Part shown: piece after piece, positions 2 through 15,431 of the stretch
Layout: the number at the start of each line of letters is the position of its first letter
Position numbering within the stretch: the first letter of the stretch is position 1
Origin: Phycisphaerae bacterium
GTDB lineage: Bacteria; Planctomycetota; Phycisphaerae; Tepidisphaerales; Tepidisphaeraceae
Assembly (NCBI GenBank): GCA_014380825.1
Contig: JACMJD010000498.1
Coordinates: forward strand, 1 to 16,331
Direction: 5' to 3'
Length of the DNA stretch: 16,331 nucleotides
Position numbers and translations under genes: made by a program
The notes under the pieces: model-generated
The model's input: the letters and a program-made list of their open reading frames with translations, nothing else
The model's database searches: none
What the model was told of the DNA's origin: nothing

Positions 2-1939
2 GGAAACTGGACCGGCGCGGGCGGCGCGAACTTCTCGGCCGCGAACAGTTGGAGCAACGGAACCGTGCCGGGAAACCTGACGGCCGTTACGTTCAACTCC
101 AGCGGCGGCGGGAATACCAACATCAATCTCGGCGGGGCGATCAACCTGGCGCGCATCACGTTCGACACCATCAGCGCGGCCGCGCACACGTTTCAGGCGG
201 GCGGCACGATCACGCTGAACTCTGGCGGCGGGATCACGATCACCAACACCGTCACCACGACGCAGACTTTCAACAACGCGTTCGCGCTCTCCGGCCCGAC
301 GATCTTCGCGAATTGGAGCGCGACGAACCTCCAGCGGCTTACGATCAACGGCCTGATCACGTCCGCCACTGCGACGCGAAATCAACTCGCACTCTTCGGC
401 AACGGCAGTGGACACCTGAACGGCGCGATAAGCGACGGCGTCGGCACGATCGCGCTGTTCAAAACCGGCGACGGAACGTGGACCGTCAGCGGCAACAACA
501 CGTTTTCCGGCGAGACGTATATCGGCTCGGGAAATCTTCAAGTCGCGCACAACAACGCACTGGGATCGACCGTCGGCGGAACGACCGTCGCGAACGGCGC
601 GTCGCTTCAGATCAACGGCAACGTGTCGGTCGGCGCTGAGCCGCTGTCCATCTCCGGCGACGGCGCGGGCGGACAGGGCGCGTTGCAACTGCTCGACCAA
701 GTCGCCTCCGGCACGTTCGGCGGCGACATTGCCGTTATCGGCAATGCCAAGTTCGCCAATCGCAGTTTCAACAACGGCAATGTGATCTTCACGCTCGGCG
801 GAAAACTTCGCGGCGGAAGCCCGACGTCTACGCTGACATTCTGGGGCAGCAACTCCAACCCCGGCTACTTTCGACTCGCGGGCAGCGGCAGCGATTACAC
901 CGGCACACTGTCGATCCTGTCGACGAAAGTCATCCTGGCCGGCGGCGATAACACGTTGTCGCCGGCGACCATCGTGAACCTCGACACGAATGGTCTCTCC
1001 ACCAGCTTCGATGCCGGCGTGCTCGATCTGAATGGCACAAATCAGACGATCGCCGGCTTGACGAACGTAACCCGCGCCACGCTGCCGCGCATCGTCAATC
1101 GGGCCAACGGCTCGTTTAAAACGTTGACGATCAACGCGACCAACAACTTCTCGTTCGCCGGCACGATTCGGAATGACACTGGACAGATCGCACTGACGAA
1201 AACCGGCGCCGGCAATCAGATTCTCAGCGGTGCGAACACGTACACCGGTGGAACGACCGTCAACGGCGGGACGCTTACGCTCACGAATGTTCTTGCGGTG
1301 GGCACCGGCACGCTTGGCGTGAACGCGGGGCGCGCACTGTACATGTCGGGATTGCCGACCGCGGCGAAGCACGCGTCGATCCATGTCGTCACATCCTCGG
1401 GTGCGATCGACTTGAACGATAATGATCTGATCGTGGGCGCCGCAAAGCCGCAAGCGGCGGTGGAGGCGTTGGTGGTCGCCGCGCGAAATGGCGGCGCGTG
1501 GGATGGTGGCGGGCTGACGAGCACGTCGGCGAAGAATCATTCGACTCACTCCACCACGCTCGGTGTGATGAGCGGCGCGGAGTACATTTCGTTCCACGGC
1601 GCCGGCGCGATCTTCGGCGGGCAGTCGATCAGCGCGGCCGACACGCTCGTCAAGTACACGTGGTACGGCGATACCGATTTCTCCGGCATCGTCGACTTCG
1701 ACGATTACGGCCGGATCGATACTGGCTTCAACAACGGCTTCGTCGGCTGGACCAACGGCGACTTCGACTACAACGGCATCGTCGACTTTGACGATTACTC
1801 GCTCGTCGATCAGGCGTTCAACACGCAAACCGGCTCGCTTCGTAGCGTCCCGGAACCGAGTGGATTGATCCTGATCGCCACGGCTGTATCGACGATGCTC
1901 GTACGACGACGACGCGTCGATAATCGGCAGACAATATGA
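2..1939 (+). CDS. Autotransporter-type beta-strand repeat protein with dockerin-like repeats and PEP-CTERM tail (5' partial)
   Basis: The frame is open from base 2, so the true start lies outside the window; the GTG at 65 is internal. The visible 645 codons are rich in Gly, Asn, Thr and Ser, as in parallel beta-helix surface proteins. Two stretches match the autotransporter-associated beta-strand (PATR) pattern: about 443-568 (KTGDGTWTVSGNNTFSG) and about 1181-1320 (KTGAGNQILSGANTYTGG). From 1661 to about 1830 come two dockerin-like calcium loops (DTDFSGIVDFDDY and DFDYNGIVDFDDY). The C-terminus has VPEP (1847-1858), a hydrophobic segment and a run of four arginines, which is the PEP-CTERM layout recognised by exosortase. 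I infer an exported, surface-sorted structural or adhesive protein, possibly tied to polysaccharide binding. No catalytic domain is visible. Its stop codon touches the promoter of the LacI gene, and no terminator hairpin is seen between them. Confidence 0.9.
   Translation, partial: GNWTGAGGANFSAANSWSNGTVPGNLTAVTFNSSGGGNTNINLGGAINLARITFDTISAAAHTFQAGGTITLNSGGGITITNTVTTTQTFNNAFALSGPTIFANWSATNLQRLTINGLITSATATRNQLALFGNGSGHLNGAISDGVGTIALFKTGDGTWTVSGNNTFSGETYIGSGNLQVAHNNALGSTVGGTTVANGASLQINGNVSVGAEPLSISGDGAGGQGALQLLDQVASGTFGGDIAVIGNAKFANRSFNNGNVIFTLGGKLRGGSPTSTLTFWGSNSNPGYFRLAGSGSDYTGTLSILSTKVILAGGDNTLSPATIVNLDTNGLSTSFDAGVLDLNGTNQTIAGLTNVTRATLPRIVNRANGSFKTLTINATNNFSFAGTIRNDTGQIALTKTGAGNQILSGANTYTGGTTVNGGTLTLTNVLAVGTGTLGVNAGRALYMSGLPTAAKHASIHVVTSSGAIDLNDNDLIVGAAKPQAAVEALVVAARNGGAWDGGGLTSTSAKNHSTHSTTLGVMSGAEYISFHGAGAIFGGQSISAADTLVKYTWYGDTDFSGIVDFDDYGRIDTGFNNGFVGWTNGDFDYNGIVDFDDYSLVDQAFNTQTGSLRSVPEPSGLILIATAVSTMLVRRRRVDNRQTI
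1661..1830 (+). repeat. Two dockerin-like EF-loop repeats within the surface protein
   Basis: Two calcium-loop units, each with the pattern D-x-D-x-x-G-x-V-D-x-x-D-Y, lie 30 codons apart. Their DNA is almost identical: 1685-1708 and 1775-1798 differ at a single base over 24 bp, which points to a recent duplication or gene conversion. Type I dockerins also have two such loops about this far apart, but the helices here are shorter and I cannot say whether a cohesin partner exists. Confidence 0.75.
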
Positions 1940-1968
1940 TTGACCCTCCCACCTCGATTCAACACAAT
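1940..1968 (+). promoter_or_regulatory. Predicted sigma-70-type promoter of the LacI gene / carbohydrate operon
   Basis: A -35-like TTGACC (1940-1945) and a -10-like CACAAT (1963-1968) are separated by exactly 17 bp, giving a predicted start near 1975 and a leader of about 22 nt. The -10 box forms the left half of the palindrome at 1963-1976, so a bound repressor would block polymerase. The -10 is a weak match (4 of 6), so the call rests on spacing and position. Confidence 0.5.
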
Positions 1969-1976
1969 CGATTGTG
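1963..1976. promoter_or_regulatory. Predicted LacI-family operator (14-bp perfect palindrome)
   Basis: CACAATCGATTGTG is a perfect palindrome with a central CpG, the hallmark of LacI/GalR-family operators, where the hinge helices pry open the central CG step. It lies 20 bp upstream of the LacI-family start codon and overlaps the predicted -10 box. Autoregulation of the regulator and the downstream transport genes is inferred. I saw no second full copy in the window. Confidence 0.7.
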
Positions 1977-1996
1977 ACGGCCTTTATCGAGTGCCT

Positions 1997-3046
1997 ATGA
2001 GTCGAGTTACGCTTCAGGATGTCGCCGCTCAAGTTGGCGTGGACCGCAGCACGGTCTCGCGCGTCCTGAGCAACAAGGCCGCCGAGGGCGGCATCAGCAG
2101 CGAGCTGGCGGCGCGGATCGTCAGTAAGGCGCGCGAGCTCAACTACATCCCGAACACGTCCGCCCGCGCGATTCGCATGGGGCGATTCAATTGCGCGGCG
2201 CTGCTGATGAGCACCGTGGCCGGGCGAAGTTATCTGCCGAGCCGGTTGCTGGATGGAATTCACGACGGTCTGGCGGCGGCGGATATGCATCTCACCGTCG
2301 CCAAGATTCCTGACGAGACGCTGAACAACGAAGACTACGTCCCCAAGATCCTCCGCACGCTGATGGCCGACGGCGTGATCATTAACTACACGAGCCATCT
2401 GCCGGAACATCTGGTCAAGATTGTCGATCAGCGAAAATTTCCGGCCGTGTGGATCAACACGCGGCGAGAAGTGGACGCGGTGTATCCGCAGAACTTCGAA
2501 GCCGCGCGCGAAGCAACGAAGCGACTGCTTGAAGCGGGGCATCGTAAGGTCGCGTATATCGATCTGTGCGCGGGCGAACGAGAGCTTGCCACGGCGCACT
2601 TCAGCGCGACCGATCGGCGGAATGGTTACTTCGCCGCGATGAAAGCTGCGGGCTTGCCGCCGCAGGAGCTGCGGCCGATCAATGCGTGTACGACGTTTGA
2701 GGCCGAGCACAAATTTGTGGCTGACCTGCTTCGCCGGCCCGATCGTCCGACGGCGCTGCTGTGTTATTTCTCGGTGTTCGTGCCGGCGATCCTTCGCATG
2801 TCCGCCGAGATCGGGATTAGGATTCCGCAGGACCTGTCGATCGTCACATTCGCCGCCGACAGCGACCGCGAGCGCGGCACGCCGGTGAGCGCGATGCTTG
2901 AACCGCACTATGAGATGGGTCTTGAAGCGGTGCGATCGCTCTGCGGCAAGATCGATGCGCCGCACCGCGCGGTGAAACCAAACGAGTTGAGCTTCATCTG
3001 GCAAGACGCCGGCACTTGCGTGGCGCCACAGCACGCTTCGCGGTAG
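1997..3046 (+). CDS. LacI-family transcriptional regulator
   Basis: This 349-residue protein has a LacI helix-turn-helix at residues 4-24 (VTLQDVAAQVGVDRSTVSRVL), a hinge around 52-61 (PNTSARAIRM) and a periplasmic-binding-protein-like effector domain from about 65 to the end. The effector domain shows family signatures such as DGVI, AGHRKVAYI, DRRNGY and IPQDLSIVTF. The ATG at 1997 is preferred to the TTG at 1940, because the extra 19 residues would precede the conserved HTH start and would place the start codon within the predicted -35 box. The hinge position usually held by Leu is Ile59. It is the first gene of a block with a glycoside hydrolase and two sugar permeases, so an oligosaccharide or sugar effector is likely; its identity is unknown. 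It probably represses its own promoter through the palindrome just upstream. Confidence 0.93.
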   Translation: MSRVTLQDVAAQVGVDRSTVSRVLSNKAAEGGISSELAARIVSKARELNYIPNTSARAIRMGRFNCAALLMSTVAGRSYLPSRLLDGIHDGLAAADMHLTVAKIPDETLNNEDYVPKILRTLMADGVIINYTSHLPEHLVKIVDQRKFPAVWINTRREVDAVYPQNFEAAREATKRLLEAGHRKVAYIDLCAGERELATAHFSATDRRNGYFAAMKAAGLPPQELRPINACTTFEAEHKFVADLLRRPDRPTALLCYFSVFVPAILRMSAEIGIRIPQDLSIVTFAADSDRERGTPVSAMLEPHYEMGLEAVRSLCGKIDAPHRAVKPNELSFIWQDAGTCVAPQHASR

Positions 3047-3094
3047 CCGTCTTTGTTTCACGCAACGACGCACAAGCGGGTAGGATTTCCGCCG

Positions 3095-5317
3095 ATGTTC
3101 TACTTCCTTCCCTTGCTGCTCCTGTTCATGACCGCCAGCCCTAACACTGCGATTATCATCACGCCAAACGAGCACACCTTCCGCGTGCATCAGCGAGCGC
3201 AGTGGAAGATCCTGCTGCCGCGCGATTACGCGAACCCGTTCGATCCAGATGAGATCGCCGTCGATGCGAGGTTCGTCGGGCCGGATGGGCGGGAGCTGGT
3301 TGTGCCGGCGTTTTGGTTCATTCCCGGGCGTATCGAAAGCGAACCAACCACGCGCGTGGCAACAGACGAGCAGTTGAGGCAGGCGAGCTTCACCGTGCGA
3401 TTCGTGCCGCCGGTGCCGGGTGCATGGAGCATGATGGTGAAAGTGCGCGATACGGAACGTACGCAGCGATCCGCACCGATTTTTTTCGAAGTCAAACCCG
3501 CGCCACCGGGCTCCCGCGGTTTTGTCCGGCGATCTCCGAAGACTTCCCACTACTTCCAATTCCATTCCGGCGAACCATTCTTCATGATCGGCCCGAACCT
3601 CTGCTGGGCGAACGAGCGGGGGATCGCGCAGTATGATGAGTGGTTCGAGAAGCTGACCAGCAACGGCGGCAACTTCGCGCGGATCTGGATGTCGCGGCCA
3701 AACCAGCTCTTCGAAACGAAGAAGCTTGGCGTCAACCGATACGACCAGGACGGCTGCGCGTTTTACGATGCGCTGTTCGAGACCGCTGAGCGGCACGGCG
3801 TGCATTGCATGCTCACCTTTAACAACTACCGCGACCTCGTCGATCGCGACATGTGGGGCCCAGCCGAGTGGCCAAACATTCCACATAACGCAATCAACGG
3901 CGGCCCGTGTACGCGGCCGACGGATTTCATCAACTCTGAAATTGGGCAGAAACTTTATCGCAATCGACTTCGTTACATCGTCGCGCGATGGTCGGCGTAC
4001 ACGTCCGTCGCGTGCTGGGAATTCTGGAACGAGCAGACGTTCACCAACGTCGACATCCCGCCCGCCTGGACGCGCGACATGGCGCGTTATCTCAAGTCGA
4101 TCGATCCGCATCAGCATCTGGTGAGCACCTCGTTCGGCGCCAACTCGCAGCACGAAGTCTGGGCGATGCCCGAGATCGATCTTGCCCAGGAGCATCAGTA
4201 CTTCGGCGAAGGCGTGCGCGATGCGTCCGCGCCGATCAGCGCGATGGCGCGCTCGCTGTGGGAGAAGTTCGACAAGCCGAGTCTCATCGCCGAGTTCGGC
4301 ATCGCCGGGGAAGGATCGGACATCAAGTTCGATCCCGACGGTATCGGCACGAACATGCACAACGGGATGTGGGCGAGCATGATGTCCGGCTCCGCGGGCG
4401 TGGGAGCGATGTGGTGGTGGGACAATTACATCGATCCGAAAAACCTCTGGTACCAGTTCTACGGCATCTCGCAGTTCGCGAAGCAAATCGACTGGATCAA
4501 CCAGCGATTCGAGCCGGTTACCCTCGCGCCGATCATGTCGGACAGGTCGCAGCCAGAGATTTTCGCTGACCTGATCATTCGCAGCGCCGGCGGATGGGGA
4601 AAGAGTCATGGCAAGCCGATCGCTGTGCTGCCGAACGGACAGACGTCGCTCGGCCTGCCGCAGTACATCTACGGAACCGAGCAGCCGAGATACCGGACGC
4701 AGACGATCCTGAACGTCGGGATTCCGCAGCCGACGAAGATGGTTGTGCGCGTGGGAAAAGTTTCGGATGCGGCCGTGCTGCGGGTAGTCATCGACGGTGA
4801 ACCGACCAAAGATTTCGCCTTCAGCGGCCTGCCTGGCGCGCCGGGGCAAACGAAAGTGGAAAGGCATCCGGAAGGAAAATGGCAGGCGGAATTTCATCAG
4901 GATTGCGAACTGGAAGTCCCCGCCGGCAAGCACGTGATCGAGCTGCGGAATGAAGGCAACGACTGGCTGGCGATCGAAGCAGTAACGTTTCGCAGCGCGC
5001 GATCTTCGCAGTATGCGGATCTGGAAACGTACGCGATGAAGAATGAGGCATCCGGCGATGTAATCGCCTGGCTGCATGATTCCGAATCGAACTGGTTCAA
5101 CGATCGCGCGAAAAAGATGCCGCGGACGATCAGCGGCGCGCGCCTGAATCTTTCGGTGCAATCGGGCAAAACGTATCGCATCGACTGGTGGGACACGTGG
5201 AAAGGCCGCGTGATCGAATCGCGCGAAATCACGGCGACCGGCGGCGGCGAGCTGCAACTTGAAATTCCGCCCGTTCACCGCGACATTGCACTGCGGGCGA
5301 CACGCATCGGATCGTAA
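3095..5317 (+). CDS. Secreted glycoside hydrolase, DUF5060-like N-terminus plus GH-A type (beta/alpha)8 barrel
   Basis: The ATG at 3095 is chosen because TAGGA (3081-3085) lies 9 nt upstream and the protein then opens with a signal peptide (residues 1-19, MFYFLPLLLLFMTASPNTA). The TTG at 3053 would bury this signal. The mature 740-residue protein begins with a beta-rich DUF5060-like domain (about 25-130). A barrel follows, with N-F-A-R-I-W after strand 2, the probable acid/base E313 in WEFWNEQ and the probable nucleophile E400 in LIAEFG, as in clan GH-A. The C-terminal 230 residues look like beta-sandwich accessory domains, possibly carbohydrate-binding. The substrate cannot be read from the sequence. 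It starts 48 nt after the LacI gene and ends 6 nt before the binding-protein/permease fusion, so hydrolysis and import are very probably linked. Family assignment below clan level is uncertain. Confidence 0.85.
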   Translation: MFYFLPLLLLFMTASPNTAIIITPNEHTFRVHQRAQWKILLPRDYANPFDPDEIAVDARFVGPDGRELVVPAFWFIPGRIESEPTTRVATDEQLRQASFTVRFVPPVPGAWSMMVKVRDTERTQRSAPIFFEVKPAPPGSRGFVRRSPKTSHYFQFHSGEPFFMIGPNLCWANERGIAQYDEWFEKLTSNGGNFARIWMSRPNQLFETKKLGVNRYDQDGCAFYDALFETAERHGVHCMLTFNNYRDLVDRDMWGPAEWPNIPHNAINGGPCTRPTDFINSEIGQKLYRNRLRYIVARWSAYTSVACWEFWNEQTFTNVDIPPAWTRDMARYLKSIDPHQHLVSTSFGANSQHEVWAMPEIDLAQEHQYFGEGVRDASAPISAMARSLWEKFDKPSLIAEFGIAGEGSDIKFDPDGIGTNMHNGMWASMMSGSAGVGAMWWWDNYIDPKNLWYQFYGISQFAKQIDWINQRFEPVTLAPIMSDRSQPEIFADLIIRSAGGWGKSHGKPIAVLPNGQTSLGLPQYIYGTEQPRYRTQTILNVGIPQPTKMVVRVGKVSDAAVLRVVIDGEPTKDFAFSGLPGAPGQTKVERHPEGKWQAEFHQDCELEVPAGKHVIELRNEGNDWLAIEAVTFRSARSSQYADLETYAMKNEASGDVIAWLHDSESNWFNDRAKKMPRTISGARLNLSVQSGKTYRIDWWDTWKGRVIESREITATGGGELQLEIPPVHRDIALRATRIGS

Positions 5318-5323
5318 AGCAAC

Positions 5324-7870
5324 ATGCGGCGAAAACGACGAGGACAAATTCCCCTGTGGATGGCGATCTGTCTCGCGGTCGCGCTGGTCATCGCACTGTC
5401 GATCTGGACGATCGCGCAGAAGAGCGAGCAGACCGAAGATGGCCGGCAGGCAATCGTGTTCTGGGGCAGCACGACGCAGCTTGGCGAAGAAATCCAAACC
5501 GTTATTCATCGCTTCGAAGAGAAGAATCCGGAATACCGCGTGATCATGAGCAGCGCCGCCGCGCGCGATCTTACCGGCGACGCGCAGCGCCTGATGTGCG
5601 CGGTGGCGGGGAAGGTGCCGCCGGATGTCGTGTACTTCGACCGTTTCGCGATCGGAGAATGGGCCGCGCGCGGGGCGCTGCTGGATTTGCGTCCGATGAT
5701 CGATCGTCAGAATTCGCGCGATCCGAGTCGCATCAATCTCGACGACTATTACGAATTCGCGGTGGGTGAAGCCAGCTATCGTCCGCCGGGATCGAGCGAA
5801 ACGCCCGGTGTTTACGGCGTGCCGGTGAGTACCGACATCCGCTTCATGTTCTGCAATGGCGATGTGCTCCGACAAGCGGGTTACGTCGACGAGAAGGGCG
5901 AGCCCAAGCCGCCGAAGAACTGGGACGAGCTGCGCGATTACGCCAACAAGCTGACGCTCTATCGCGTCCCGGGTAACAAGGCCAGCGGCATTTCGCGGCT
6001 GGGCTTCGCGCCAAACAGCGGCAACAGTTGGCTGTACATGTATGCCTGGCAAGCGGGCGGCGAGATGATGAACCCCGAGCGCACCCAAGTGACGATGACC
6101 TCGCCGCCGGTCGTGCGCGCGCTGCGATACATGACTGACGTCTACGACGACCTGGGCGGCGTTGGTCAGGTGAAGAGTTTCGAAGAAGCACAGCAAGGCG
6201 GCTCGCTCGATCCGTTCCTGCTCGGTCGCCTGGCGATCAAAATCGACGGCAACTGGTCGATGACGAACATCGCGGATTGGAAATCCGACATGGATTTTCT
6301 GGTCGCCCCCGCACCCCTGCCGCAGGATCAGATCGACAAAGGAAAAGATCCGGTCGCGTGGTCCGGCGGATACGCGCTGGTGATCCCATCGACCGCGCGG
6401 CAAAAGGAAGGCGCGTTCAAGCTCATCCAGTTCCTGCGCAGTTGGGAAAGCATCCAGATGCTCGAGCAGGGCAATCGCGAGCAGCGCGAGGCCGAGGGAA
6501 AAATCTACCTGCCGCGCATCGAGGTGAACCAGGTTTTCGCCAAGCGGTTGTTTCAGTCGGCGGTGTTCGACAATGCGCGATTGCCGCAAACGTATAAGCG
6601 CGCATACGCGATGATTCTCGATCTGCTGCCGCACACGCGGATTCGTCCGGTGACACCGGTGGGGCAGTTGTTGTGGACGAAACATGTGAACGCCTTCGAC
6701 GCGGCGGTGCGTCACGGTTACGCGGAAGAGGCTAAGAACAGCGGGCGCGATGAGATCGAGCTGGCGCTGCAAAAGAATCAGGAGATCGTGCAGGCGGAGC
6801 TGGATTCGATCACGCAACCGCCGCCGCCGCACATGGTGAACTGGACGCCGTATCTGTGGCTGTATGCGCTGCTCGTGATCGCGCCGTTCGTCGCGATGTG
6901 GCGGACGTATAAGAAGCGTCGCCGAGAGTACGGCTATCGCGCGCGGGAAGTCGGCGCCGCCTTGCTGTTCGCTTCGCCGTGGATCGTCGGCTTCACGGTT
7001 CTCGTCGGCGGACCGATCCTCTTCAGCATCGTTCTCAGTTTCTCACGGTACGACGTGCTGAACCCGGCGCGATATGTCGGCATGAGCAACTTCACCGGCG
7101 TTATCACCGACCCCACGTTCTACAAGAGCCTGTTGAACACGCTCTACATGGCGCTGGCGATTCCGCTCGGAATGATCATCAGCCTGGCGATCGCGCTGCT
7201 GCTGAACCGCGCGGTTGGCGGGATCGGGTTTTATCGCGCGGGCTATTACATGCCCGCGATCGTCCCGCTCGTGGCGGCGAGCCTCATGTGGATCTGGATC
7301 CTCAATCCAAACTACGGCCTGATCAACAGCGCGCTGGGCTGGCTGTACGACACCTGGCTGTTTCACGGCCTCGAAGGCTTCATCAGCAACTTCACGGCGG
7401 AGCCGTTCAAGTTCAGCTTGCCGCTTTGGCTGCAGCACGAATCGTCGAGCAAGCCGTCGCTCATCCTGATGAAACTCTGGGGCGCCGGCGGCGGGATGAT
7501 CATCTGGCTCGCGGGGCTTCAGTCGATCCCGGGCGAGCTGTACGAAGCCGCGCGTGTCGATGGCGCCGGCCCGTGGCATCGGTTTCGGCACGTCACGATT
7601 CCGATGCTCAGCCCGTACATCCTCTTCAATCTGATCATCGGGCTCATAGGGACGATGCAGATTTTCTCCGAAGCGTACATCATGACGCCCAACGGCGAAC
7701 CGTTCGGCTCGACGTTGTTCTACGCGTACTACCTCTTCCAACAGGCGTTCCAATTCTTCCGCATGGGCTACGCCAGCTCGCTGGCGTGGATTCTGTTCAT
7801 CGTGGTCCTCCTGCTGACGCTGCTGCAACTGTGGCTCAGCAAGAAGTGGGTTCACTATGAACAAGCGTGA
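5324..7870 (+). CDS. Fusion of extracellular sugar-binding protein and MalF-like ABC permease
   Basis: This 848-residue protein joins two normally separate subunits of a CUT1 sugar importer. Residues 10-30 are a hydrophobic anchor without lipobox cysteine. Residues 44 to about 490 form a cluster-B solute-binding domain (VFWGSTTQLGEEI; PPDVVYFDRFA; GVYGVPVSTDIRFMFCN; WSGGYALVIPS). A second membrane segment at about 509-527 returns the chain to the cytoplasm, and residues 540-848 are a MalF/UgpA-like permease with several membrane helices. The EAA loop, docking site for the ATPase, is intact at 741-758 (EAARVDGAGPWHRFRHVT). This order keeps the binding domain outside and the permease ends inside. 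The start follows the hydrolase stop by 6 nt with a weak ribosome site, suggesting translational coupling. The gene overlaps the next permease by 14 nt. The open frame is continuous, so the fusion is genuine unless there is a sequencing error. Confidence 0.92.
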   Translation: MRRKRRGQIPLWMAICLAVALVIALSIWTIAQKSEQTEDGRQAIVFWGSTTQLGEEIQTVIHRFEEKNPEYRVIMSSAAARDLTGDAQRLMCAVAGKVPPDVVYFDRFAIGEWAARGALLDLRPMIDRQNSRDPSRINLDDYYEFAVGEASYRPPGSSETPGVYGVPVSTDIRFMFCNGDVLRQAGYVDEKGEPKPPKNWDELRDYANKLTLYRVPGNKASGISRLGFAPNSGNSWLYMYAWQAGGEMMNPERTQVTMTSPPVVRALRYMTDVYDDLGGVGQVKSFEEAQQGGSLDPFLLGRLAIKIDGNWSMTNIADWKSDMDFLVAPAPLPQDQIDKGKDPVAWSGGYALVIPSTARQKEGAFKLIQFLRSWESIQMLEQGNREQREAEGKIYLPRIEVNQVFAKRLFQSAVFDNARLPQTYKRAYAMILDLLPHTRIRPVTPVGQLLWTKHVNAFDAAVRHGYAEEAKNSGRDEIELALQKNQEIVQAELDSITQPPPPHMVNWTPYLWLYALLVIAPFVAMWRTYKKRRREYGYRAREVGAALLFASPWIVGFTVLVGGPILFSIVLSFSRYDVLNPARYVGMSNFTGVITDPTFYKSLLNTLYMALAIPLGMIISLAIALLLNRAVGGIGFYRAGYYMPAIVPLVAASLMWIWILNPNYGLINSALGWLYDTWLFHGLEGFISNFTAEPFKFSLPLWLQHESSSKPSLILMKLWGAGGGMIIWLAGLQSIPGELYEAARVDGAGPWHRFRHVTIPMLSPYILFNLIIGLIGTMQIFSEAYIMTPNGEPFGSTLFYAYYLFQQAFQFFRMGYASSLAWILFIVVLLLTLLQLWLSKKWVHYEQA

Positions 7871-9596
7871 TGCGGGCGATGCAGTATCCGAGGTCCGACT
7901 GACGGACCGCTCGCGCAATCGGAATCGAAGATTCGCCGGCTACGTCGTCCGTCGCGGCTGGCTCCATCTGGTACTCCTCACGGGTCTCGGCATCTTCACG
8001 TTCCCGTTTCTGTGGATGCTCTTCACCAGCATGAAGACCGACGACGAGCTGACCGGTCCGAACTGGATGCCGGCCGTGCCGTCGTTTAAGTCCCATTCGC
8101 CTTATGTGCTCGATCCGCCGGAACCGATCAAACCGATCGGCGTGGCCGAGGCGGATTGGATTGCGGCGCTGCCGAACCTGCTTCAAGCGACGCGCGAAGC
8201 GGTTGTGGTCACGAAGGAAAAAGCCGACGCCGTCGGCGTGAACGCTGACGAGTATCGCGACTCCGCTGCCGCGATCGTCCTGAATCGCGCCGTCGCGCGC
8301 GTGCCCAGCGCGTTGTGGGGGACAGCTCCACTGCTCGACGGATATCGCAAGCTGCTCACGCCCGAGCTGATCGGTAATGCGCTAGTCGATCGGCTTGCCG
8401 TTCTTGAAATTCGCGGCCTGCTGATGCGCACGAACGATGCGCACATCACCGAGCTCTGCAACGCCAAAGATGTTTCCCGTCGTTGGAAGGTTGAGTCGGG
8501 CAACGGACAGATTCAGACGAAGGACGACGGCGCGGCCTTCCTTCGCTACAAGTTCGATTCGTCGAGCGACGCCCCCGTTATCCTGCGGCTGGACTTCGAT
8601 TCGCCCGCCGACGCGGAAGATCTGCACAAGCTGATTTTCAGTTTCGTCGCCGACAACAGTTGGCATCGCGTCGACTCGACGCTTCAGATCGGCGAGCGAA
8701 AGTTCGCCAGCGACCGCAGCACGTATTTCGCGCAGGCGCGCGCGGGCAGCATGCTGTTTCAGCCGCCGGGGTTTGAAGACGACACGTTCAAAGCGAAGAA
8801 CTGGGTGCCGATGTTGCCGCAGGCGAACGCCCCGAGCGCCGCGCCGGGCTCGCGCAATGCGACGCTGCGATTGATCATCCGCCCCAGCTCCACGCTCCAG
8901 GCGATCTACGGCAAGGTCACCTTCAACTACTGGCGCGCGTTTCGCCAGGTTCCGTTCTGGAAGTACGTCGGCAACAGCCTGATGCTGGTCGCGCTGTGCA
9001 CGCTGGGCACTGCGTTCAGCAGCACCTTCGTCGCGTATGCATTCGCGCGACTGCAATGGCCGGGTCGGAGCGTGGCGTTCATCTTGCTTCTTTCGACGAA
9101 GATGCTGCCCGGACAGGTCACGATGATCCCGTCGTTCATGATCTGGAAAACGCTCGGCTGGTACAACACGCTCAATCCGCTGTGGGTGCCGTCGTGGCTG
9201 GGCACGGCGTTCTTCATCTTCCTCATGGTCCAGCACATGAAGACGATCCCGCGCGAGCTTGAAGAGGCCGCGCGGATCGACGGGCTGAACGCGATCCAAA
9301 CCTGGTACTACATCATCCTCCCGCTGGTAAAACCCGCCGCCGCCGCGATCGCGATCATGACCGTCATGGGCGCCTGGAACGAATTCATGGGCCCGCTGGT
9401 TTACCTGCGCGATCAGGCGAAGTTCCCCTTGAGCCTGGGCCTGTTCGGCATCCGCGCCGATCAATCCACCGGCGCGAACGACTGGACGATGATCATGGCG
9501 GGCAACATCCTGATGACGCTGCCGGTCATCCTGATGTTCGTCGTCTTCCAGAAGTACTTCGTGCAAGGCATGGCGATGAGCGGAATGAAGGGATGA
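7857..9596 (+). CDS. MalG-like ABC sugar permease with large periplasmic insertion
   Basis: A MalG-type permease is normally about 270-300 residues; this one has 579. The first helix is at about 34-54 (LVLLTGLGIFTFPFLWMLF, then TSMKTDDEL). The family's usual continuation, NYWRAF..VPFWKYVGNSLMLV, appears only at residue 357. The rest of the permease is normal, including the EAA loop at 470-487 (EAARIDGLNAIQTWYYII) and the final helices. The roughly 280-residue insert faces the periplasm. Its first half (about 75-200) looks helical. Its second half (about 205-350) alternates like a beta-sandwich, with W-H-R-V and repeated aromatic residues that could fit a carbohydrate-binding or lectin-like fold. 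I do not recognise its family. It probably pairs with the upstream fusion to form the heterodimeric pore. No ATPase gene follows, so a shared ATPase is inferred. Confidence 0.92.
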   Translation: MNKRDAGDAVSEVRLTDRSRNRNRRFAGYVVRRGWLHLVLLTGLGIFTFPFLWMLFTSMKTDDELTGPNWMPAVPSFKSHSPYVLDPPEPIKPIGVAEADWIAALPNLLQATREAVVVTKEKADAVGVNADEYRDSAAAIVLNRAVARVPSALWGTAPLLDGYRKLLTPELIGNALVDRLAVLEIRGLLMRTNDAHITELCNAKDVSRRWKVESGNGQIQTKDDGAAFLRYKFDSSSDAPVILRLDFDSPADAEDLHKLIFSFVADNSWHRVDSTLQIGERKFASDRSTYFAQARAGSMLFQPPGFEDDTFKAKNWVPMLPQANAPSAAPGSRNATLRLIIRPSSTLQAIYGKVTFNYWRAFRQVPFWKYVGNSLMLVALCTLGTAFSSTFVAYAFARLQWPGRSVAFILLLSTKMLPGQVTMIPSFMIWKTLGWYNTLNPLWVPSWLGTAFFIFLMVQHMKTIPRELEEAARIDGLNAIQTWYYIILPLVKPAAAAIAIMTVMGAWNEFMGPLVYLRDQAKFPLSLGLFGIRADQSTGANDWTMIMAGNILMTLPVILMFVVFQKYFVQGMAMSGMKG

Positions 9597-9677: not shown

Positions 9678-11333
9678 CTACTTCGTTACGCTCAACCCTG
9701 TGATCCGCACGCTCTTCCCGGCTTCGGGTGCTTGAAGCACCAGGATGACTTCATCCTGCGCCTCCAGTGGCGGCGTGGCGCACATCGTCCGTTCGCCGAA
9801 CACGCGAATGGGATAATTGTGCGTCAGACTTTTGTTCCAGAGGAAGATTCCCGGGTCCAGCTTCACTTGCAGCACCGCACGCTTGCCGACCAGTTCCGGC
9901 GGCACGACCAGCGGAACGCGCACGCCGATGCTGTGCTTGTCGGGATTTGATTTCACGTCGATGCGCAACACGGATTCACCTGCGGCATTTGTCTCGGCGA
10001 CGACATCAAACTTCGCAGCCTCGCCAGGCTGATTCATCGGGTCCCGCACAACCCAGGTTGAAACATCGGCCGCATTGTTCGCCCGGGCCGCGCCATTCGC
10101 GGCGGCGGCGGTCGCGCCTCGGATCAAATCTACGCCGCGCGAAACCGGCGGGTTGTCGAGAATGGCTTTGGCGTGCTCGTTGAAAACTCGGCGGATCTTG
10201 AATTGATCGTTGTCGAGCCACCCGCTGTCCATTTGTGTCACGAGCAGGTCGACCATCACGTTGCTCTTGTCGTCCATGATGAACGTATTCGCGAGCGTTC
10301 CGCTGCGCACATCGAGCCGGCTGAACTGCATGATCTGGCAGTTTTCCATCTTCACTCTATGTTTCTCGCCCAGCAGTTTCAGATCGTCGAACTGGCCCCA
10401 GCAGTCTTTGAAGTGATAAGCGATCCCGTCTTTCGGCGTGATGACTTCCATCCAGTTGTTGATCCACGTGACGGAACCTTCCACGTAAAAAGCGACCGCC
10501 GGCTTGCTGCCGCTTTCGATGATGCAGCCGCTGATCGTGTTGCCCGCGCCGCGCACGGTGAGCCGGGCGGGTTCGCAGGCGAATTCCTTGTCGCCGTCTT
10601 CGCCTTCGGTGTTGATGCGATCGATGAGATTGGCATTGCCGAAGATCGTCGCAGCGCCGCCGCCATAGTTGAGGACTTTGATATTCTGCAGAACGCAGTC
10701 CTGGCTGTAGGCGTCAAGTCGGATCGCGAAATGGCCTTTGCCGCTGCGAAGGTGCAGGTTCTCGAGGCGGCAGTTGCTGACGTTCTTCACCGTCTTCGCA
10801 TCAAGGCTGATGCATTCGCTGGTGGGGGAGAAGATCTTCATCTCGCGCACCACCGCGCCGGTGTTGTATCCGTGGCCGAAGAGTGCGATCAGGCTGATGG
10901 TCGGCGCGTCACCGCGGCCGAGCAGGTAGGTGCCTTCGCCTTCGCCGACAAGCTGGATCGCCGACGGTAGTCGCAGGCTGGTCACGTTAAACGTTCCGCG
11001 CGGGATATAAACGACGCCACCTCGCGCCGCCACATCGTTCGGGACAGGAATCGAGTTGATCGCCGCCTGAATCGCGGCGGTGTCGTCGCGACGATCGTCC
11101 GGAACGGCGCCGAACGTTTTCACGTTCACACCATAGCCCGAGGTATCGGCCGGCGCAAACTGCGGTCGACGAGCTTGCAGCGGGTCCTGAATCATTTGGC
11201 CTGTTGCAATCTGTTGCACTGTGATGCATGCGATGAGCGCCGCCGCCACGGGCGCAATCTGAAAGCCAGATGAGAAACGGGTTCGTTTTGTGACTTCGCA
11301 TTCACGCTGCGCCGTTTGGGTTCGTTTTGTCAT
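9678..11333 (-). CDS. Secreted right-handed beta-helix protein (pectate lyase superfamily)
   Basis: The ATG at 11333 is preferred to the far upstream start at 11570, because GGAGAT (11346-11341) sits 7 nt before it and the extra 79 residues are Arg/Cys-rich with no secretory character. The 551-residue protein starts with a basic stretch followed by a hydrophobic signal segment (about 27-45, ending near IATGQ). The Pectate_lyase_3 signature follows at about 67-115 (YGVNVKTFGAVPDDRRDDTA, then GGVVYIPRGTFNV). Repeated short beta-helix rungs run to about 400 (CRLENLHLRS; CVLQNIKVLNYGGGA). The C-terminal 110 residues look like a separate beta-sandwich. Such proteins are lyases or hydrolases of acidic polysaccharides, or inactive binders; catalytic residues cannot be named here. 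It converges on the sugar-transport operon and may act on the same polymer, which is inference. Confidence 0.87.
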   Translation of the reverse strand: MTKRTQTAQRECEVTKRTRFSSGFQIAPVAAALIACITVQQIATGQMIQDPLQARRPQFAPADTSGYGVNVKTFGAVPDDRRDDTAAIQAAINSIPVPNDVAARGGVVYIPRGTFNVTSLRLPSAIQLVGEGEGTYLLGRGDAPTISLIALFGHGYNTGAVVREMKIFSPTSECISLDAKTVKNVSNCRLENLHLRSGKGHFAIRLDAYSQDCVLQNIKVLNYGGGAATIFGNANLIDRINTEGEDGDKEFACEPARLTVRGAGNTISGCIIESGSKPAVAFYVEGSVTWINNWMEVITPKDGIAYHFKDCWGQFDDLKLLGEKHRVKMENCQIMQFSRLDVRSGTLANTFIMDDKSNVMVDLLVTQMDSGWLDNDQFKIRRVFNEHAKAILDNPPVSRGVDLIRGATAAAANGAARANNAADVSTWVVRDPMNQPGEAAKFDVVAETNAAGESVLRIDVKSNPDKHSIGVRVPLVVPPELVGKRAVLQVKLDPGIFLWNKSLTHNYPIRVFGERTMCATPPLEAQDEVILVLQAPEAGKSVRITGLSVTK

Positions 11334-11340
11334 TTCGCTT
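11291..11340 (-). repeat. Tandem 21-bp repeat at the start of the beta-helix gene
   Basis: Read on the minus strand, a 21-bp unit containing the start codon is repeated 42 bp (14 codons) later with two mismatches. The protein therefore begins MTKRTQ and repeats VTKRTR at residue 15. The second copy has GTC, not a start codon. From memory, short in-frame repeats encoding TKRTQ-like strings recur in planctomycete genomes, so this may be a dispersed element that reached the 5' end of the gene. Confidence 0.6.
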
Positions 11341-11466
11341 ATCTCCGAGCTGCCGCAGTGTATGACTCGCGGCTTAAGTCGCCAGCGTCGCACGCGCGCG
11401 CCTGCGCAATACCTGAAGGCGCTGCGCAAATGCTCACGCGGCGCGCAGCGCAAGAGCGCAAAACGA

Positions 11467-11501
11467 CTCCCGCGAACGAATTTCGCGGGAGAAAAATTAT
11501 A
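11467..11501 (-). promoter_or_regulatory. Predicted promoter -10 box with inverted repeat at the start site, upstream of the beta-helix gene
   Basis: On the minus strand a consensus TATAAT lies at 11501-11496 in a short AT-rich island; the -35 region is poor. Transcription would start near 11489. Exactly there is a perfect 9-bp inverted repeat, CTCCCGCGA (11467-11475) and TCGCGGGAG (11483-11491), with a 7-nt loop. It could be an operator or a 5' mRNA stem-loop. The leader would be about 155 nt long. Confidence 0.5.
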
Positions 11502-11588
11502 TTTTCGTGTTTTGGTTGTTGCGCGCGGCGCGAAGTTCTGGCGCAGTGCAAGGAAAGGAATGGAGTACAAGCTCGCGCTTCGCGCTCG

Positions 11589-14318: not shown

Positions 14319-15431
14319 TTGAGTGAATCACCTGTTATCGAAAAATCGATTGAGCACGCGAAGGAAGCGCGCCTCCGATACGTCACCGACGAGACGCCCG
14401 GGATAACGCGAAAGCGCGCAGGAAAATCGTTCAATTACTTCGCCGTGAGCGGCAAGAAAGTCCGGGACGCTGACACGCTGGCGCGCATCCGCGCGCTGGT
14501 GATTCCGCCCGCCTGGACCGACGTCTGGATCTGCCCCGACGAGAATGGCCATCTTCAAGCCACCGGGCGCGATGCGCGCCGGCGAAAGCAGCATCGATAT
14601 CACCGGAAATATCGCGCTGTACGGGATGAGGCGAAATACGATCGCATGATCGACTTCGCGAAGTCGCTTCCCAAGATTCATCGCGCCACCGCGAAAGATT
14701 TGAAACGGAAGGGCCTGACGAAAGAACGAGTGTTGGCCGCGCTGATCCAAGTAATGCAGAAGACGCTGATCCGCGTCGGCAATGAAGAATATGCCAAGCA
14801 AAACGATTCCTACGGCCTAACTACGCTCAAAGACAAACATGCTCGCGTGCGTGGCGGGAAAGTGCGATTCGAATTCCGCGGCAAGAGCGGAAAAGAACAC
14901 GAGATCGATCTGGAAGATCCGCGTCTCAGCACGATCGTCAAGAAATGCCAGGACTTGCCGGGCGAGCAATTGTTTCAATATCTCGACGATGACGAGAATG
15001 TCGTCGACATCAACTCAACCGACGTGAACGAATACCTGCGTTCCATCGTCGGCGAAGATTTCACCGCGAAAGACTTTCGCACCTGGGCCGGCACCGTGCT
15101 CGCGGCGCGGGCGCTGAGCGCGCTGGAAGAGATCGACTCGAACGCCGCACGCAAGAAAAATATCGTGCGCGCGGTGGAAGCGGTCGCCCAGCGCCTTGGA
15201 AATACCAAGGCGGTTTGTCGAAAATGCTACATCCATCCGCAGGTAATCGACGCATACCTTGACGGCTCGCTGGCGCTTACGCTGAGTAAGCGTGCGGGGC
15301 GAGAGTTGGCGCGGTCGGTGCATTCGCTCAACCCCGAAGAGGCGGCGGTATTGGCGCTGTTGCAGCAAAATCTGCTGCATGCATCCCGGAAATCACGCCA
15401 CGGACAAAATGGTCGCGCGCGCGGACGATAA
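14319..15431 (+). CDS. DNA topoisomerase IB (poxvirus/bacterial type)
   Basis: This 370-residue enzyme nicks one DNA strand through a 3'-phosphotyrosine and relaxes supercoils without ATP. All catalytic positions of the vaccinia-type family are identifiable: R152 (in RVGNEEYA), K189 (in FRGKSGK), R254 (in KDFRTWAGT), H306 (in YIHP) and the nucleophile Y313 (in VIDAY). The N-terminal domain contains IPPAW and GRDARRRKQHRYH, both typical of the family. The start is TTG at 14319; the frame upstream reaches the preceding gene's stop codon without an ATG or GTG. The nearest ribosome-binding site, AAGGAG at 14300-14305, is 13 nt away, longer than usual. It is probably the last gene of the dehydrogenase-lipoprotein-topoisomerase operon. 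The C-terminal tail is rich in Arg and Lys. Confidence 0.96.
   Translation: MSESPVIEKSIEHAKEARLRYVTDETPGITRKRAGKSFNYFAVSGKKVRDADTLARIRALVIPPAWTDVWICPDENGHLQATGRDARRRKQHRYHRKYRAVRDEAKYDRMIDFAKSLPKIHRATAKDLKRKGLTKERVLAALIQVMQKTLIRVGNEEYAKQNDSYGLTTLKDKHARVRGGKVRFEFRGKSGKEHEIDLEDPRLSTIVKKCQDLPGEQLFQYLDDDENVVDINSTDVNEYLRSIVGEDFTAKDFRTWAGTVLAARALSALEEIDSNAARKKNIVRAVEAVAQRLGNTKAVCRKCYIHPQVIDAYLDGSLALTLSKRAGRELARSVHSLNPEEAAVLALLQQNLLHASRKSRHGQNGRARGR

Follow-up and report, generated by a model that had tools for sequence, protein, structure and literature searches.

In the usual view, sugar importers of the ATP-binding cassette (ABC) type need a binding protein that diffuses or is anchored to a lipid. 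In MalF of E. coli, the MalF-P2 domain sits between transmembrane helices (TM) 3 and 4, according to the accessible part of a 2008 article (PMC2246101). The same part describes a hydrophilic region of about 500 aa between TM1 and TM2 of MalG1 and MalG2 of the Thermotogales, the function of which was unknown. Binding domains covalently joined to a membrane subunit are described for OpuA and GlnPQ in the accessible parts of two further articles (PMC11065425, PMC8025302). The window analysed here is the whole stretch of 16,331 nt of contig JACMJD010000498.1 from a Phycisphaerae bacterium. Its positions 5324-9596 code for two polypeptides that make up the membrane half of a sugar ABC importer of the CUT1 type: a solute-binding protein (SBP) fused to MalF, and a MalG-like permease with a large insert between TM1 and TM2.

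The two importer proteins

The fusion protein carries SBP_bac_1 (PF01547, residues 48-373) and BPD_transp_1 (PF00528, residues 637-841), the latter being its MalF part. Since both stand in one frame of 848 aa, the protein qualifies as an SBP-fused importer. A search with the fusion yielded 768 relatives at an E-value of 1e-30, and both families are present in all 120 of those listed. The extra TM of the fusion (residues 507-525) would connect the MalF core with the binding domain outside.

The first 14 bases of the permease gene are shared with the gene upstream. Its PF00528 score of 60.5 bits (cut-off 26.4) places the permease in the MalG branch of the CUT1-type ABC importer permeases, and its sequence matches in the PDB are SugB, AlgM2 and MalG. 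The maltose permease equivalog PRK10998 (NCBIfam) was scored at 84.1 bits, below the curated cut-off of 261. Inside the BPD_transp_1 core lies the stretch IPRELEEAARIDG, read from the sequence, which we take to be the EAA-like motif. TM2 comprises residues 375-393 according to hydropathy. By a rough measure, TM1 and TM2 are 309 residues apart, compared to 31-67 (in one case 83) in 31 ordinary MalG rows. The basic N-terminus would place this loop outside the cytoplasm under the positive-inside rule.

An earlier inspection of the letters and translated frames (here termed the sequence-only reading) had proposed a large insert between helix 1 and helix 2 of a MalG-like permease, next to a MalF partner that itself carries the binding domain. 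Both proposals are confirmed, the first by the open reading frame (ORF), Pfam, hydropathy and relatives, the second by the two domains in one frame. The proposed coordinates of the insert, 8049..8918, lie within 6 bases of those found here (8052-8912).

Fold and conservation of the insert

The insert has no match to a Pfam family and, used as a profile (A3), gave no PDB sequence match at an E-value of 1. Fold searches with the whole permease were set aside, as their matches were dominated by the transmembrane core, and the insert was therefore searched alone. For its separate prediction, the window slice served as first row, and 59 relatives, taken whole from the 120 listed, made up the remaining rows. 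A two-part fold, with a helical half followed by a jelly-roll half, is predicted with confidence in these models. The beta-sandwich that the sequence-only reading had seen in the second half is thus retained, while the helical first half (about residues 98-179) had gone unremarked. Structure prediction and fold search, which had been suggested as a check, gave a predicted folded domain.

The part aligned in the fold search spans residues 128-281 of the model, i.e. residues 193-346 of the permease. Nearest folds of the beta-sandwich half are CBM11, the N-terminal domain of GH50, FlaA1, CBM61, CBM35 and CBM27, with 8% identity in the match to CBM11. MalF is absent among the 50 listed fold matches of the insert model, which is not evidence for a different fold.

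The insert is retained in 59 aligned relatives at 34-74% identity, and this, together with its invariant residues, argues against a chance reading. P82, Y231 and D266 are identical in all 150 aligned rows, many of which are close kin, W269 of the D266-N-S-W269 turn is found in 146 and S81 of the S81-P82 motif at the base of the insert in 147. The prolines and the S81-P82 motif at the base are almost invariant. The insert is also the fastest-evolving part, with a median distance of 2.4 compared to 1.2 for the SBP and 0.6 for the cores.

Distribution of the insert and its pairing with the fusion

A search of 5.8 billion proteins with the permease resulted in 1322 matches at an E-value of 1e-5, many of them perhaps to the core only. 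For the 120 listed, the match spans 91% or more of the query in 117 cases and 69-77% in the other three. Sources named among the listed matches are Tepidisphaeraceae, Planctomycetota and soil metagenome. Whole-length matches in the genome scan came from two Phycisphaerae and one Candidatus Hydrogenedentota bacterium. With a profile of the insert only, it was found in 27 of the 298 genomes of the same class (that of genome G001). These, five genomes of the phylum search, two loci of genome G003 and the window make up 35 insert loci. At most four candidates per genome were scored in the phylum search, eight in the insert scan of the 298 genomes and three in the fusion scan of the same genomes.

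An SBP-MalF fusion adjoins the insert in 30 of the 35 loci (28 tabulated rows, L082, whose MalG is split over frames, and, judged by coordinates, L081). MalF runs off the contig in four (L033, L047, L048, L049), and the fusion of L050 is split within its MalF part into two overlapping frames. An intact separate MalF beside the insert was found in none of the 35. Seen from the other side, fusions of the window's kind (class 1) occur at 30 full-length places in the 298 genomes, a list that is incomplete only below full-length fusions. At 24 of these places the fusion adjoins a MalG with the insert and at two it runs off the contig (G337:C175, G563:C101); an ordinary MalG stands beside none of the 30.

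Some loci hold more than one fusion. In genome G394 (L053, 3963-9222), two fusions with 80% identity stand in tandem before one MalG, L051 (4109-10573; L124) has a second fusion with an MFS gene between, and L052 and L054 are lone fusions. One MalG may serve several fusions. Matches from Firmicutes and Bauldia with spans of up to 1.2 kb had been considered as partial versions of the insert and were dropped: loci L004, L008, L014, L016 and L018 have MalG proteins of 274-387 aa with no such loop by eye.

Phylogeny of the permease cores

In the tree of MalG cores, all 33 insert-bearing rows fall into one clade (SH-aLRT 95). The class-1 fusions likewise form one clade of 35 rows in the tree of MalF cores (SH-aLRT 98), including four fusions that are not directly beside a MalG. 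Insert and fusion hence mark corresponding single clades, and the 35 loci count as a single evolutionary event. Both trees were built by a quick method, and long branches are flagged in them; the MalG tree leaves out L082, L098 and L086 (a copy of L050), and L081 has no readable MalG core.

Other large loops in MalG

MalG frames of about 460 aa elsewhere in the phylum have a different domain in the same loop, with CBM48 and/or AMPK1_CBM in five of six scanned. The loop is 215-225 aa long, matches the glycogen-binding domain of AMPK beta-1 (4qfg and others, E-value 2e-5) and belongs to a MalG clade separate from that of the insert. At the seven loci of this type (L036-L042; e.g. L036:3921-5333:-), which were picked by frame length, MalF is separate in six and the seventh MalF frame is short; MalK adjoins MalG in four (L036, L037, L038, L042). 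CBM48 or AMPK1_CBM was counted by hand in 69 of 120 listed homologues (P0241-P0360), and the sources named for these 69 include Brocadiae, Acidobacteria, Blastocatellia and Uabimicrobium. We rejected the idea that AMPK-type glucan-binding residues are kept throughout this class: at what are presumably the ligand-binding positions of AMPK, only about half of the 104 rows agree (W 53, K 49, W 52, N 44). In the window permease, PF02922 and PF16561 gave no match at an E-value of 0.1, and a profile of the CBM48 loop was likewise without a match in the window.

Further large MalG loops without a clear family have 226 (L043, 1279-2742:-), 187 (L044) and 169 residues (L045, 5463-6740:+). The loop of L043 weakly matches Lyase_N with an E-value of 0.002, under the cut-off. 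Taken together with the CBM48 loops, the loops of 169-226 residues point to this loop of MalG as a site that foreign domains have probably entered repeatedly. Glycan-binding domains can, as the CBM48-loop permeases suggest, form part of the importer itself.

Substrate context and ATPase

In one subclade of six rows, a GH13 amylase is located directly upstream in all four loci examined, preceded by a LacI regulator in both of the two examined for it. One locus of this subclade (L113) has two GH31 proteins downstream. Neighbours at other insert loci are GH42-like, RhaT, BNR_4 or unrelated genes, and those of the window are a DUF5060 protein and, on the opposite strand, a pectate-lyase-like protein. 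As neighbour genes differ among the loci examined, no common substrate of the insert importers was found, and the transported sugar probably differs among them.

At an E-value of 1e-5, neither the window nor 20 insert loci (12-20 kb) gave a MalK-like gene, except that at L122 the MalK search gave two weak matches of 27-31% to another ATPase. MalK-like genes are present elsewhere in all four genomes tested. The ATPase of the insert importers is therefore probably shared.

Role of the insert

The outside domain of MalG probably steadies or feeds the tethered catcher. How it might do so is a matter on which we favour one reading with about even confidence, namely that the insert is a cradle for the tethered binding domain. 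Placed over MalG like a fixed wall, it would restrict how the binding domain suspended from MalF moves and hold that domain poised above the pore. By analogy, it would play from the opposite subunit, and for a captive binding domain, the part that MalF-P2 of E. coli plays for the free maltose-binding protein. This reading is suggested by the pairing with the fusion, by the invariant D-x-S-W turn and by a weak extra correlation between insert and SBP. The partial mirror-tree correlation of insert and SBP is 0.22 (permutation p 0.013) and that of insert and MalF core 0.05 (p 0.29), in a permutation test that ignores relatedness and with insert distances near saturation.

This limit on the correlations weighs against the cradle, as do several of the following observations. 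The insert correlates more with its own MalG core (0.31) than with the SBP; for the SBP, the correlations with the two cores (0.48, 0.36) exceed that with the insert. Due to the single shared origin, the statistics of insert and fusion are weak. Against a general rule of pairing, four of the 30 class-1 fusion places are without a MalG directly beside (G327, G394 twice, G337:C151). The close class-1 fusions P0122 and P0137, the latter from Fontivita pretiosa, lack a matched insert-bearing MalG among the 120 listed permease homologues, and may pair with an ordinary MalG, which the length limits of the search would hide; the Fontivita pretiosa fusion was not found at near-identity in the 26 genomes searched (best 64%). 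Also against a general rule, the clade of CBM48-loop MalG proteins has a large loop with a separate MalF. Finally, fusions of a second class, whose SBP is distant (29-80 bits), all stand with an ordinary MalG with a loop of 39-66 residues. This was seen in nine of nine cases, which came from ten loci picked by their MalF match (about 800 aa or full-length; L057-L066), the tenth (L066) having a separate SBP and MalF. A tethered SBP thus does not need such a wall.

The sequence-only reading had regarded the two proteins of the window as co-adapted and had considered that either one occurring without the other would count against this. One half of the idea stands, as the large-loop MalG and the SBP-MalF fusion are real and the insert is accompanied by an intact separate MalF in none of the 35 loci. 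The converse fails with the second class, so that no general rule links fusion and insert. The further suggestion that the insert may cap, position or feed the binding domain is kept here as a hypothesis.

A set of 20 loci selected for short MalG frames, a biased sample for this class, contained six further second-class fusions. The loci of the class are thus L057-L065, L088, L093-L095, L105 and L106, and a MalK-like gene is present in five of the 15 (L059, L064, L095, L105, L106). In the MalF tree, 14 rows share one branch (94), and L095, on a long branch, falls elsewhere. Nearest to the class-1 fusions are separate MalF genes (support 83), so that the two classes may go back to separate origins, the second being possibly an independent fusion. 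As the second class has the tether and lacks the insert, nature itself provides a comparison by which the contribution of an extra outside domain to a captive binding domain could be judged. At L096, L097 and L099 there are MalF-like frames of 478-525 aa that match the MalF core more weakly; these are perhaps MalF proteins with an extra part of their own.

The main rival, which we hold to be possible though not probable, sees in the insert a captive carbohydrate-binding module, the jelly roll of which would hold an oligo- or polysaccharide near the pore and hand its ends to the tethered binding domain. It draws on the nearest folds, which include many carbohydrate-binding modules, and in that respect they speak against the cradle. 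Y231, D266 and W269 are constant while the neighbouring enzymes differ, however, which would be easier to reconcile with a protein partner that stays the same than with a sugar that varies. It is unlikely that the insert is mainly structural or serves assembly, stabilising the complex of two polypeptides or setting how far it lies from the cell wall or outer layer. The helical half without a named function, the near-invariant prolines and S81-P82 at the base and the rapid drift elsewhere in the insert would all agree with such a role, but a specific site is suggested by the conserved D-x-S-W turn, which lies in the jelly roll and, in the sequence, away from the base. A neutral passenger carried along in one lineage, as the single origin in the sampled tree and the fast divergence might indicate, is highly improbable, because the insert, with its invariant residues, has been retained in a clade extending to Candidatus Hydrogenedentota (L003/L034) and is present in all 33 clade rows, although most loci were found via the insert itself and losses are under-sampled.

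Beside the cradle, a broader idea that we put forward with considerable doubt is that carbohydrate-binding domains have repeatedly used the first outside loop of MalG as a port; these would be at least CBM48 and the jelly roll described here, and perhaps the region in the Thermotogales. In the window's lineage, port and SBP-MalF fusion would have arisen on the same branch, so that both capture modules are covalently built in and sugar chains could be handed straight to the pore, with a shared ATPase.

Features of the window and neighbouring genes

The coordinates of the features are given in Table 1. The DUF5060 protein is possibly a glycoside hydrolase. Positions 2-1939 (+) encode a beta-strand repeat protein of the autotransporter type with a match to the TIGR02601 repeat and, by eye, a PEP-CTERM-like tail. 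The pectate-lyase-like protein (Pect-lyase_RHGA_epim; 9678-11570, -) faces the permease operon. The frame at 14319-15431 (+) has no NCBIfam match and by eye resembles what we take to be DNA topoisomerase IB.

Table 1 Positions of the importer genes, their domains and the upstream genes in the window
Feature	Position	Strand	Basis
LacI-family regulator, same direction as importer genes	1940..3046	+	Pfam/NCBIfam
DUF5060 protein, directly upstream of fusion	3053..5317	+	Pfam
SBP-MalF fusion, 848 aa	5324..7870	+	ORF list, Pfam
N-terminal hydrophobic anchor or signal of fusion, residues 9-27	5348..5404	+	Hydropathy
Solute-binding domain SBP_bac_1 of fusion, residues 48-373	5465..6442	+	Pfam
Extra TM of fusion, residues 507-525	6842..6898	+	Hydropathy
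MalG-like (CUT1-type) permease with insert, 579 aa	7857..9596	+	ORF list, Pfam and NCBIfam scans
TM1 of permease, residues 38-56	7968..8024	+	Hydropathy; helix 18-59 in structure model
Extracytoplasmic insert (predicted), residues ~66-352, ~287 residues	8052..8912	+	Hydropathy, structure models, aligned relatives
Helical half of insert, about residues 98-179	8148..8393	+	DSSP of model; same order in insert-alone model
Beta-sandwich (jelly-roll) half, residues 183-342	8403..8882	+	Structure models, fold search
Y231, same in 150/150 rows	8547..8549	+	Alignment
D266-N-S-W269 turn, between two jelly-roll strands	8652..8663	+	Model, alignment
BPD_transp_1 core of permease, residues 395-572	9039..9572	+	Pfam; only Pfam family found in permease

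Comparison with known systems

The host group is described as complex-carbon degraders in the title of PMC11266412, in the accessible text of which no mention of permeases was found. In the open-licence PMC literature (titles and abstract beginnings), no account was found of a MalG with such an insert together with the fusion, or of a CBM48-loop MalG, which may be in print elsewhere; the long MalG of the Thermotogales is the nearest. The window's importer keeps its binding partner on a tether, and the membrane subunit opposite has acquired an outside domain of its own.

E. coli MalFGK2 and the importer of the window both have a CUT1-type core and a large outside domain beside the pore. In E. 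coli this domain belongs to MalF (TM3-TM4), whereas the insert does not have the location of MalF-P2 and belongs to MalG (TM1-TM2). MalE-MalF of Bdellovibrio reportedly has a fused binding domain as well, although we did not find it in the literature search. In OpuA, GlnPQ and Bdellovibrio MalE-MalF, the partner permease is not known to carry an additional outside domain. Compared to CBM11 and other galactose-binding-like carbohydrate-binding jelly rolls, the insert adds a helical half, sits inside a permease and is without a Pfam match. The CBM48-loop MalG proteins resemble the window's MalG in having a beta domain in the same loop, but this domain is of a different family, MalF and SBP are separate there and the proteins fall into another clade of the tree. 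As far as the accessible part of PMC2246101 goes, MalG1 and MalG2 of the Thermotogales share with the window the large region between TM1 and TM2: there, the region has about 500 aa and SBP, MalF and MalG are separate genes, whereas in the window it has about 287 residues and SBP and MalF are fused. OpuA and GlnPQ, as described in the accessible parts of PMC11065425 and PMC8025302, are like the window's fusion in that a binding domain is covalently joined to a membrane subunit. A large region between TM1 and TM2 of MalG and fused binding domains were thus each already known from these sources; the combination of a MalG with this insert and an SBP-MalF fusion was not found in the open-licence literature searched.
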